A DNA stretch of 44,822 nucleotides from an uncultured Ignavibacterium sp. (GTDB lineage: Bacteria; Bacteroidota; Ignavibacteria; Ignavibacteriales; Ignavibacteriaceae): the NCBI GenBank assembly GCA_937942875.1, contig CALEBT010000002.1:1-44822 (forward strand), given 5' to 3'. The translations under genes and the position numbers were made by a program. Below the pieces are notes generated by a model that had not been told where the DNA came from, searched no databases, and was given only the letters and a program-made list of their open reading frames with translations. Below, piece after piece: positions 1 through 11,365 of the stretch (the stretch's first letter is position 1; each line of letters opens with the position of its first letter).

Positions 1-341
1 ACCAACCAAAGCTGTTTTTCTGTTTCTTTACTGCCTACTCTTCTTAGCCAATCACCAATTGCATCGCTGCTCGGTAGTTTCATCTCTTTGAGCATTTCCT
101 GAAATGCTTCATCGCTATGAAGATGATTTACATCTTCTAATTGAACCGCTCCATCGATATCCATATACATCAATGTATTTATTTAGTCGCTGGCTTTGAT
201 TGCTCTGTTGCTGCCACCTTTAGGAAATAATTCGTCTGTTTTATCTCTTAGCTTAAGTTTTATTATTATTTGTTCGATTAACGGCGAGCCAATACGGTTT
301 TGTTTACTGCGGGTAACTTTAAAGCGTTTTAGTGGTCTCAT
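1..341 (-). pseudogene. IS1380-like transposase, 5' part, interrupted by an in-frame stop
   Basis: Read on the minus strand from the ATG at 339-341, the frame codes for 52 residues and meets TAA at 183-185. The same frame then continues to the window edge with residues such as GAVQLEDVNHLHSDEAF and LPSSDAIGDWLRR. That second part resembles the N-terminal region of IS1380-type DDE transposases, where a short PSSDAxGDWLRR stretch is typical. The stop stands where a sense codon is expected (SD-stop-INTLMYMD), so this copy is probably inactive, unless the stop is a sequencing error or the gene restarts at the ATG around 169-171. The 3' part lies outside the window, so the catalytic DDE residues cannot be judged. 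I see no clear terminal inverted repeat upstream of the start. Family assignment is from memory of the motif. Confidence 0.6.
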
Positions 342-530: not shown

Positions 531-617
531 GCCGGGGTGGCGGAAGTGGTAGACGCACAGGACTTAAAATCCTGTGGGCTTTATAAGCCCGTGCCGGTTC
601 GAGTCCGGCCCTCGGTA
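531..617 (+). tRNA. tRNA-Leu (anticodon TAA)
   Basis: An 87-nt class II tRNA. The acceptor strand GCCGGGG (531-537) pairs with CCTCGGT (610-616), with G-T wobbles. The anticodon arm is CAGGA-CTTAAAA-TCCTG, giving anticodon TAA for UUA codons. A long variable arm (GGGCTTTATAAGCCC) and the T arm GCCGG-TTCGAGT-CCGGC follow. The discriminator is A617. The CCA end is not encoded (CAA follows), unlike the neighbouring tRNA-Val. Confidence 0.95.
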
Positions 618-633
618 CAATAAATCTACCCTT

Positions 634-1296
634 AAGTTTTTAATTATTCATTTTTAATTATAAATTTTTCATTATTAGGGGCTCTTAGCTCATCCGTCAA
701 CTGACGGAGGTTGGAGCGTGGCGACTTGTCGGGAAGTTCAAATGTTATTAAGAATTTTCTGGGAAATAACTTAGTTCTTTGAAATTGAGAAATTGTTGAG
801 TAAAAGTTTTTAATTATTCATTTTTAATTATAAATTTTTCATTATTAGAGGCTCTTAGCACATCCGTCAACTGACGGAGGTTAGAGCGTGGCGACTTGTC
901 GGGAAGTTCAAATGTTATTAAGAATTTTCTGGGAAAAAACTTAGTTCTTTGAAATTGAGAAATTGTTGAGTAAAAGTTTTTAATTATTCATTTTTAATAA
1001 TAAATTTTTCATTATTAGGGGCTCTTAGCTCATCCGTCAGCTGACGGAGGTTAGAGCGTGGCGACTTGTCGGAAAGTTCAAAGGTTAATAAGAATTTTCA
1101 GGGAAAAAACTTACTTCTTTGAAATTGATAAATTGTTGAGTAAAAGTTTTTAATTATTCATTTTTAATTATAAATTTTTCATTATTGAGGGCTCTTAGCT
1201 CATCCGTCAGCTGACGGAGGTTAGAGCGTGGCGACATGTCGGAAAGTTCAAAGGTTTTTAATTATTCATTCTTAATTTTAAATTTTTCATTATTGA
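634..1296. repeat. 170-bp tandem array of degenerate tRNA-Val 5' parts carrying a palindrome
   Basis: Three full units (634-803, 804-973, 974-1143), one shortened unit (1144-1253) and a fifth copy of only the AT-rich leader (1254-1296) that runs directly into the intact tRNA-Val. Each full unit has four parts: an AT-rich leader; a stretch starting GGGCTCTTAGCTCA at 679, 849 (AGGCTCT in this copy), 1019 and 1189 that matches the acceptor strand and D stem of tRNA-Val; a 16-bp insert TCCGTCA-(AC or GC)-TGACGGA; and (G)GTTAGAGCG continuing the D arm. The anticodon arm is replaced by a GGCGAC(T/A)TGTCGG hairpin, and the match continues to about AAAGGTT, the start of the T arm. The T arm and 3' acceptor strand are missing, so the copies cannot be functional tRNAs. 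Full units end with a tail containing TTCTTTGAAATTGA; the fourth lacks about 62 bp of this tail. Confidence 0.9.
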
Positions 1297-1373
1297 GGGC
1301 TCTTAGCTCAGTTGGTTAGAGCGTCTGCTTGACGTGCAGAAGGTCAAAGGTTCGAATCCTTTAGAGCCCACCA
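1297..1373 (+). tRNA. tRNA-Val (anticodon GAC)
   Basis: A 77-nt class I tRNA with encoded CCA (1371-1373). The acceptor strand GGGCTCT (1297-1303) pairs perfectly with AGAGCCC (1363-1369). The D arm is GCTC...GAGC, the anticodon arm TCTGC-TTGACGT-GCAGA has anticodon GAC, and the T arm has TTCGAAT. It is the only intact member of the tandem array just upstream, and it shares that array's AT-rich leader. Confidence 0.95.
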
Positions 1374-9961: not shown

Positions 9962-11365
9962 ATGAAAAAGCTAAGTGTATTTCTGTTTGCAACTTTCTTG
10001 ATCTTTTTTTCTTCAAAAGAGATTAAAGCTAACAGTCCCGGTCATATGCAAGGATATTTCTACTCGAACCTGACTCCATATGGAACCTGGATATCTATTG
10101 ATTTTGGCGTTTATGCGTGGAGACCAACAATTATTACAAGGACGTGGTCGCCTTACAGAATAGGAAGATGGATTTGGACAGACTACGGTTGGTATTGGGA
10201 TTCTTATGAGCCATTTGGATTTATAGTTTATCATTACGGACGATGGCATTATGATGATTACTATGGATGGATTTGGATTCCTGACTATGAATGGGCACCT
10301 GCCTGGGTAGAATGGAGGTATGATGATTATTACATTGGTTGGGCACCACTTCCTCCGTATGCTGTTTTCAGAATCTCTGTTGGAATTGTTTATACTCATT
10401 CTTATTTAATTCCCGTCGCTCACTGGAATTTTGTGAGATTCAGACATTTTGGAGACGCTTATGTTTACAATTATTATGTTCCTGAAAGAACTAAATACAG
10501 AATTCATTCAAACACTAAATACAGGAACGATTACAGATATTCAGGAGGAAGAATAAGAAATGAGGGTGTTGAATTTGATTTTGTACGACAAAGAGCTGGT
10601 GATAATATCAGAAAAAGAGATCTTGTGATTACAGACGATCCCAGAAATTTTGAGAATAGCCGAAAAAGAGAAAGGGATCAGATTACAACTTTCATTGCAG
10701 ACAGAGATAGAATTTTAACTGACAGAGAATCTTTAAGAAATGTTGATATTACAAGAACTGAAAGAAAAACGTCTCTTGATTTATCACGTGTAGAATTAGG
10801 AGAAATTCGTAACAGAGATGAAGCCAGAAACAGAGAAGAGGTAAGTCCCATAACCAGAGAAAACAACCGAGAATCTCGTCAGGAAAGAAATGATCAGATT
10901 AGAGATAATGATAGAAGAGATTCTGAAAGAAGAGATATCGATAGAAGAAATATTGAAAGAATTGAATCAGAAAGACGTGAAATAGAAAGACGAGAATCAG
11001 AGAGACGTAATAATCAGATCATTGAACAAAGAAGAAACGAGAATTTAGAGCAAAGGAGAAATGAAAGCAGAGAAAATGAAATAAACAGACAAAGAGAAAG
11101 AAATCAGGTTATTGAAGAACAAAACAGACAACATCAAAAAGAGCAGGAAAGAAGAAGTAATGGTTGGATTTCTCCAAACACTGAACAGCAAAGAAGCTCA
11201 GGAAACATTGAAGAAAGAAGAATTGAACAAAATAATAATCAGAGAAACGAAAGTCGTGAGATTAGAACTCAGCAAAGAAATGAAAATTCCCGAAATGAAA
11301 GTAACAGAGAAGATGTAAATCGGGATAGAAGACAGAACACAGAACAAAGGCAAAGAACAAGGTAA
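9962..11365 (+). CDS. DUF6600-type secreted protein with a long charged tail
   Basis: 467 residues. The signal peptide (about 1-23, ending IKA) is followed by a Trp/Tyr-rich domain (about 30-175) with the pattern LTPYGTW...YAWRP...W.PYRIGRW.WTDYGWYWDS.EPFGF..YHYGRWHYDDYYGW.W.P...WAPAWVEWRYDDYYIGWAPLPP. This matches the DUF6600 family, whose function is unknown. From about residue 200 the protein is almost wholly Arg, Glu, Asn, Gln, Asp and Ser, with ERRxxERR-type repeats, probably an elongated or disordered helix. A good ribosome site (GAAAGGAG) lies 7 nt before the ATG. The gene stands alone, with a strong terminator 25 nt downstream. Secretion is likely; the role is unknown. Confidence 0.75.
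   Translation: MKKLSVFLFATFLIFFSSKEIKANSPGHMQGYFYSNLTPYGTWISIDFGVYAWRPTIITRTWSPYRIGRWIWTDYGWYWDSYEPFGFIVYHYGRWHYDDYYGWIWIPDYEWAPAWVEWRYDDYYIGWAPLPPYAVFRISVGIVYTHSYLIPVAHWNFVRFRHFGDAYVYNYYVPERTKYRIHSNTKYRNDYRYSGGRIRNEGVEFDFVRQRAGDNIRKRDLVITDDPRNFENSRKRERDQITTFIADRDRILTDRESLRNVDITRTERKTSLDLSRVELGEIRNRDEARNREEVSPITRENNRESRQERNDQIRDNDRRDSERRDIDRRNIERIESERREIERRESERRNNQIIEQRRNENLEQRRNESRENEINRQRERNQVIEEQNRQHQKEQERRSNGWISPNTEQQRSSGNIEERRIEQNNNQRNESREIRTQQRNENSRNESNREDVNRDRRQNTEQRQRTR

Follow-up and report, generated by a model that had tools for sequence, protein, structure and literature searches.

Tandem partial copies of a tRNA-Val gene carrying hairpins in an Ignavibacterium-type bacterium resemble a nuclease-less form of tRNA-linked GIY-YIG elements

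During the analysis of a 44,822-bp stretch of DNA (hereafter the window) from an uncultured Ignavibacterium sp. (contig CALEBT010000002.1), four broken tandem copies of a tRNA gene were recognized just upstream of the intact gene. ARAGORN and Rfam indicated only two tRNA genes, tRNA-Leu(TAA) at 531-618 (+) as the upstream neighbour and tRNA-Val(GAC) at 1297-1373 (+) as the intact parent gene, and only these two reach the Rfam gathering threshold for tRNA. The array between them occupies 634-1261, where Tandem Repeats Finder (TRF) reported a period of 170 bp, 3.7 copies, 95% matches and a score of 1114. BLAST placed the units, all on the plus strand, at 634-803 (100% identity), 804-973 (98% to unit 1), 974-1143 (94% to unit 1) and 1144-1261 (93%). 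Unit 1 consists of an AT-rich leader (634-678), a 5' piece of tRNA-Val (about 679-746) and a spacer (about 747-803). Unit 4 is cut to 118 bp; its spacer is missing and it runs straight into the leader of the intact gene (1262-1296, +), which is copied in every unit. The leader, TTTTTAATTATTCATTTTTAATT, is itself a widespread motif, and weak matches to positions 1-44 of the unit occur at many places in the same and related genomes. Elsewhere in the window, an ORF of 467 aa (9962-11365) has a second half rich in R, N and E, over 15-bp imperfect repeats at 10901-11107.

Each unit repeats the leader and the 5' two thirds of the tRNA, with a 16-bp palindrome in the D loop. The palindromes lie at 693-708 and 863-878 in units 1 and 2, where the sequence is TCCGTCAACTGACGGA (14 of 16 positions self-complementary, imperfect in the middle), and at 1033-1048 and 1203-1218 in units 3 and 4, where it is TCCGTCAGCTGACGGA (16 of 16, perfect). 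In unit 1 it takes the place of GTT in the intact D loop. The anticodon arm is replaced by the hairpin CGAC-TT-GTCG at 722-731, 892-901 and 1062-1071, and by CGAC-AT-GTCG at 1232-1241. The same hairpin in either orientation (CCGACAAGTCGG) was observed in Val, Asp and Pro pieces of relatives. The pieces align to about tRNA position 56, or 67 in unit 4. The array had been described correctly in the preliminary description on nearly all points of fact, including full self-complementarity in copies 3 and 4 only; the T arm was said there to be lacking, but a remnant of the 5' strand of the T stem (AAAGGTT) is kept. RNA folding of the units is only mildly better than that of shuffled sequences (z −1.6 to −1.9).

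The palindrome is far above chance. It is a dispersed repeat with 9-35 copies per genome in eight of twelve genomes, while the reversed control pattern occurs 0 times. Genomes, contigs, loci and families are designated below by G, C, L and f numbers. In the related genome G003 many copies sit in the loops of other dispersed hairpins away from tRNAs, such as GTCACACTGA[palindrome]TGTCGAAGTGTGAC (L148, L150, L151, L154-L157, L159 and L160), a palindrome nested in a palindrome. In G080 and G024 many copies sit in plain places.

Similar arrays were found at other tRNAs. In the same genome, the same kind of palindrome sits in the D loop of three partial copies before tRNA-Arg(TCG) and two before tRNA-Gly(GCC), and in three 77-bp tandem pieces resembling tRNA-Thr at a contig end. 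Relatives have such pieces at Val, Arg, Gly, Thr, Asp, Asn, Met, Pro, Cys, Leu and Ser. Five of six genomes of the genus carry the exact D-loop form, and none of the other sampled family members do. A non-exhaustive scan of genome contigs for CTCATCCGTNNNNNNACGGAGG returned at least 115 stretches; those with a tRNA within about 400 bases are in Ignavibacterium records where a name was shown, and single hits elsewhere look like chance. The exact D-loop palindrome thus looks genus-level, although G056, of another family, has the same form at Gly, Thr and Arg. When the D-loop pattern was searched in 294 genomes of the class, only the matches in G000, G005 and G050 were considered real, and those in G191 and G436 were judged to be chance.

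A survey of tRNA pieces near intact tRNA genes was performed on loci chosen by similarity to the window, by the palindrome or by GIY-YIG matches. In this sample 5' pieces lie upstream of the intact gene at 22 locus-tRNA pairs and downstream at 0, while 3' pieces lie downstream at 16 and upstream at 1. The pieces nearly always have a hairpin in the D loop, T loop or anticodon arm. This is also the geometry of an ordinary tandem duplication with one breakpoint in the tRNA, and therefore it does not by itself prove insertion. A perfect stem of 7 bp or more is present in 60% of copies, 23% of intact tRNAs and 3% of shuffled copies. Distinct insertions fall in the D loop (31) or the T loop (23) in 54 of 97 events, where 24.5% would be expected by position; D-loop events are mostly in upstream pieces and T-loop events mostly in downstream ones. 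Of 114 pieces that cover a loop, 98 have at least one loop changed, the T loop in many 3' pieces, while the intact tRNA keeps its loop. Some 3' pieces keep an intact T loop and are altered only in the anticodon arm.

Stepwise forms were observed among the copies. At L068 (positions 1-98, minus strand; contig C152 of G002), a full-length tRNA-Val(TAC) copy differs from the adjacent intact one mainly by a D-loop palindrome, and it might still be a working tRNA with an enlarged D arm. Other copies have insertions in the D and T loops (L055) or in all three arms. At L054 (contig C180 of G004, minus strand, about 781-690), the tRNA-Val position beside tRNA-Leu holds only a copy with hairpins for the anticodon arm and T loop and a normal D loop, and no intact tRNA-Val gene is present at that locus.

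Following the 3' pieces of tRNA-Asn led to small GIY-YIG nuclease genes directly after the intact tRNA, in the order tRNA-Asn, terminator-like hairpin, GIY-YIG ORF, 3' part of tRNA-Asn with a palindrome in the T loop, and hairpin copy. In the same and related genomes, units of this kind carry the nuclease gene starting 0-150 nt after the tRNA. A genome search revealed tandem GIY-YIG arrays with periods of 295-450 bp and up to five units, some in one-contig genomes. Each repeat starts or ends inside a tRNA gene: Leu(CAG) with five units, Asp with five, Ser(TGA) upstream with three, Arg(CCT) upstream with three, and others. Every defective tRNA piece inspected in these arrays carries a hairpin, but the hairpins differ: CCTGCCTGCCGTCAGGCAGG, TCCCGACTAGTCGGGA, CCCCGCATTTTGCGGGG, TGGCGCCTCAGGCGCCA and more. 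The GIY-YIG domain was recognized with PF01541 (e-values 1.9e-19 and 4.1e-16). At L184 (643-1559) GIY-YIG reading frames run on into the tRNA piece and its hairpins, and the predicted protein C-terminus is translated tRNA sequence (RRVGRVVECGGLENR). No nuclease gene or recognizable remnant was found in the window array, and none was seen at tRNA-Val(GAC) in any genome examined.

ORF-less and nuclease-bearing units share hairpins. At tRNA-Cys of G056, an ORF-less upstream copy and a GIY-YIG-linked downstream copy carry the same CCCGCCTCAGGCGGG at the same position. At tRNA-Pro of G005, a GIY-YIG unit (frame broken by one stop) lies upstream and two ORF-less units downstream, with the same kind of anticodon-arm hairpin. 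At tRNA-Asn of G002, an ORF-less 5' copy lies upstream and a GIY-YIG unit downstream, both with TCCGT palindromes. The T-loop hairpin TGCAAAGCATCCTTCGGAGA of GIY-YIG arrays at tRNA-Ser also sits, with small changes, in ORF-less copies at tRNA-Val of G003, G004 and G005. In G050, of another family, the Leu(TAA)-Val(GAC) locus has two ORF-less units of about 145 bp with a different D-loop hairpin.

Using one GIY-YIG protein as a query, matches were found in 37 of 80 genomes of the phylum. Of the 29 loci examined, 26 have a tRNA gene within the roughly 3-kb locus, whereas about one such locus in 25 would hold a tRNA by chance, as a rough estimate from about 45 tRNAs per 3.5 Mb. Most of these loci have 3' tRNA pieces with a replaced arm, and ORF starts lie mostly 0-105 nt after the tRNA on the same strand. 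A scan of viral contigs with one GIY-YIG protein returned nothing. Most paralogue pairs within arrays show dN/dS of 0.03-0.17, indicating purifying selection. A tree of 46 nucleases groups them by tRNA identity (20 label changes against 35.1 in shuffles, 0 of 200 as low), though its 82 columns leave many forks open. A pattern for interrupted tRNA-Asp T arms that does not ask for a palindrome gave 19 matches in 395 genomes. Two of them, in family f15, have neither tRNA nor GIY-YIG nearby and look like chance. The other 17 are hairpins or decayed hairpins at the same position, nearly all beside tRNA-Asp and a GIY-YIG gene, and their stems keep 94.7% pairing with changes on both sides (0 of 500 shuffles for cells paired and for the covariation score). 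Position is conserved per tRNA while the sequence changes.

The interpretation offered in the preliminary description, either a replicating palindromic element or a new structured RNA family that could compete for tRNA-processing or binding factors, is supported only in part. Copies at other tRNAs and pair-preserving changes in the hairpins, which had been named there as support, were both found, and a plain one-off duplication is therefore unlikely. The palindrome is indeed a dispersed repeat, but many different palindromes occupy the equivalent place in other units, and thus it is not one replicating palindrome. What recurs is the tRNA piece with a hairpin, often with a GIY-YIG nuclease gene. 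For the structured RNA there is no direct evidence: no Rfam match other than tRNA was found, and the folding z-scores are weak.

The explanation preferred here, with moderate confidence, is that the array is an ORF-less (degenerate or non-autonomous) member of a family of elements that live at tRNA genes. In this view, a complete member has an intact tRNA gene, a small GIY-YIG nuclease gene directly beside it, and a second, partial copy of the same tRNA end in which a loop or arm is replaced by a hairpin, and units pile up in tandem. By analogy with free-standing homing endonucleases, the nuclease would cut its own tRNA gene in or near a conserved loop, and repair from a neighbouring or sister copy would add a unit and at the same time restore an intact tRNA. 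The hairpin in the displaced piece would remove the cut site there, so that only the intact gene could be cut again and the array would grow in tandem. When the nuclease gene is lost, arrays such as the one in the window would remain, or would be enlarged in trans by nucleases at other tRNAs. The closest experimental precedent is SegB of phage T6, a GIY-YIG homing endonuclease that cuts inside tRNA genes with the motif RAWTSGAAC, is enriched near tRNAs in phages, and is required together with recombination functions for tandem amplification of a tRNA-Tyr/segB unit (PMC13096335). The reverse complement of this motif, GTTCSAWTY, fits the tRNA T loop GTTCGAATC, a comparison made in the present analysis, and T-loop hairpins in 3' pieces break this stretch. 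The sequence data show the anatomy, the placement of 5' pieces upstream and 3' pieces downstream, the hairpins in loops, the nuclease-bearing sister arrays, the purifying selection on the nuclease, its tRNA-specific lineages and the hairpins shared by both kinds of unit. The cutting of tRNA genes by these nucleases, insertion by repair, the site-killing role of the hairpin, and the descent of the window array from a nuclease-bearing one are inferred. Some features do not fit. The absence of a nuclease gene or recognizable remnant from the window array, and of a nuclease gene at tRNA-Val(GAC) in any genome examined, counts against this explanation. The restored tRNA keeps its loop and should still be cut, and why this is tolerated is not explained. 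Any insertion would kill a cut site, and the explanation gives no reason why it should be a hairpin. The pieces altered only in the anticodon arm indicate that one site cannot serve all. The pattern around the window is stronger than the window itself.

A broader reading is possible but tentative. Bacteroidota-type bacteria may host a widespread class of self-contained tRNA-homing elements, with nuclease lineages each dedicated to one tRNA gene, which would cut it in a conserved loop and multiply in tandem while leaving hairpin-scarred, immune tRNA pieces; the window would show the nuclease-less end stage or a non-autonomous form. If true, essential tRNA genes in a whole bacterial phylum are steady homes of tiny selfish nucleases, and the odd tRNA fragments beside them are records of repeated attack and repair. 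It would provide a natural system for studying how an essential gene survives a nuclease that targets it, a source of small nucleases with different tRNA-gene specificities, and an explanation for tandem GIY-YIG genes and truncated tRNAs beside tRNA genes. The hairpins, conserved in place but not in sequence, pose a clear and testable question.

Ordinary local tandem duplication with one breakpoint inside the tRNA, followed by insertion of a dispersed short palindrome into loops of the redundant copy without any nuclease, is less likely but is the strongest of the alternatives. Under this reading only copies that leave an intact tRNA would survive. The geometry fits, TCCGTYRRYYRACGGA is a dispersed repeat also found away from tRNAs (inside other hairpins in G003 and in many plain places in G080 and G024), and the stepwise series from one altered loop to three altered arms is compatible with it. 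It explains the window alone. However, plain duplicates would often lack an insert, while 98 of the 114 loop-covering pieces have a changed loop. The variety of palindromes at the equivalent place, the fixed positions, the paired changes kept across families and the linked GIY-YIG genes are not explained. An assembly artefact is very improbable: although the window's genome is a 96-contig bin, 71% complete, the same anatomy was found in the one-contig genomes G005, G006 and G056 and in independent assemblies.

A selected structured RNA, in which units transcribed with the tRNA would act as decoys or processing signals and the hairpins would keep the pieces from folding as tRNA or from pairing with the intact tRNA, is unlikely on present evidence but cannot be excluded. 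The hairpins sit in the loops needed for the tRNA elbow, their changes are paired, and an ORF-less array with another palindrome occupies the same Leu(TAA)-Val(GAC) locus in another family. On the other hand, this reading is without expression data in its support, folding is only mildly better than in shuffles, no Rfam family was matched, and unit boundaries and spacers differ between species. A REP/RAYT-like palindrome moved by a Y1 (HUH) transposase that targets hairpin loops is very unlikely. The palindrome is dispersed and often sits in loops of other hairpins in G003, and Y1 transposases are present in most relatives. However, no PF01797 match was found in the window's own genome (71% complete), while G004, G006 and G025 have Y1 genes but no palindrome. 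Of the four Y1 loci examined, only one had a palindrome, about 1.7 kb away. A single mobile palindrome inserting in hairpin loops would fit G003, but not the plain places in G080 and G024 or the other palindromes that take its place at tRNAs, and palindrome sequence varies freely between elements.

No earlier report of tRNA pieces with palindromes or of chromosomal tRNA-linked GIY-YIG arrays was found apart from SegB, in an open-access literature search that misses most subscription papers. SegB and the tRNA-linked free-standing GIY-YIG homing endonucleases of phages (PMC13096335) share with the present elements a small GIY-YIG nuclease beside tRNA genes, tandem amplification of a unit with tRNA and nuclease, and a cut motif that fits the tRNA T loop. 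The present elements differ in lying in bacterial chromosomes, in nuclease lineages specific for one tRNA, and in repeated tRNA ends that are partial and scarred with hairpins; the window array has no nuclease gene, and cutting is here only inferred. REP elements with RAYT transposases and GTAG/CGTC-tagged palindromic repeats (PMC3733652) are likewise short dispersed palindromes in many clustered copies, but the palindromes described here have no fixed sequence, are bound to tRNA pieces and show no consistent link to a Y1 transposase. Short palindromes inside structured RNA genes or proteins, such as cyanobacterial repeats in rnpB, Rickettsia palindromic elements and double-hairpin elements of fungal mitochondria, are small hairpins tolerated in loops of structured RNAs; here the host RNA is a redundant broken tRNA copy in a tandem array, often with a nuclease gene. 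Integrative elements that insert into tRNA genes and restore the tRNA end (tyrosine-recombinase islands) also duplicate one end of a tRNA and keep an intact gene, whereas the units described here are 75-450 bp, hold no ORF or only a GIY-YIG ORF and no integrase, use both 5' and 3' ends, and carry a hairpin in the displaced piece.
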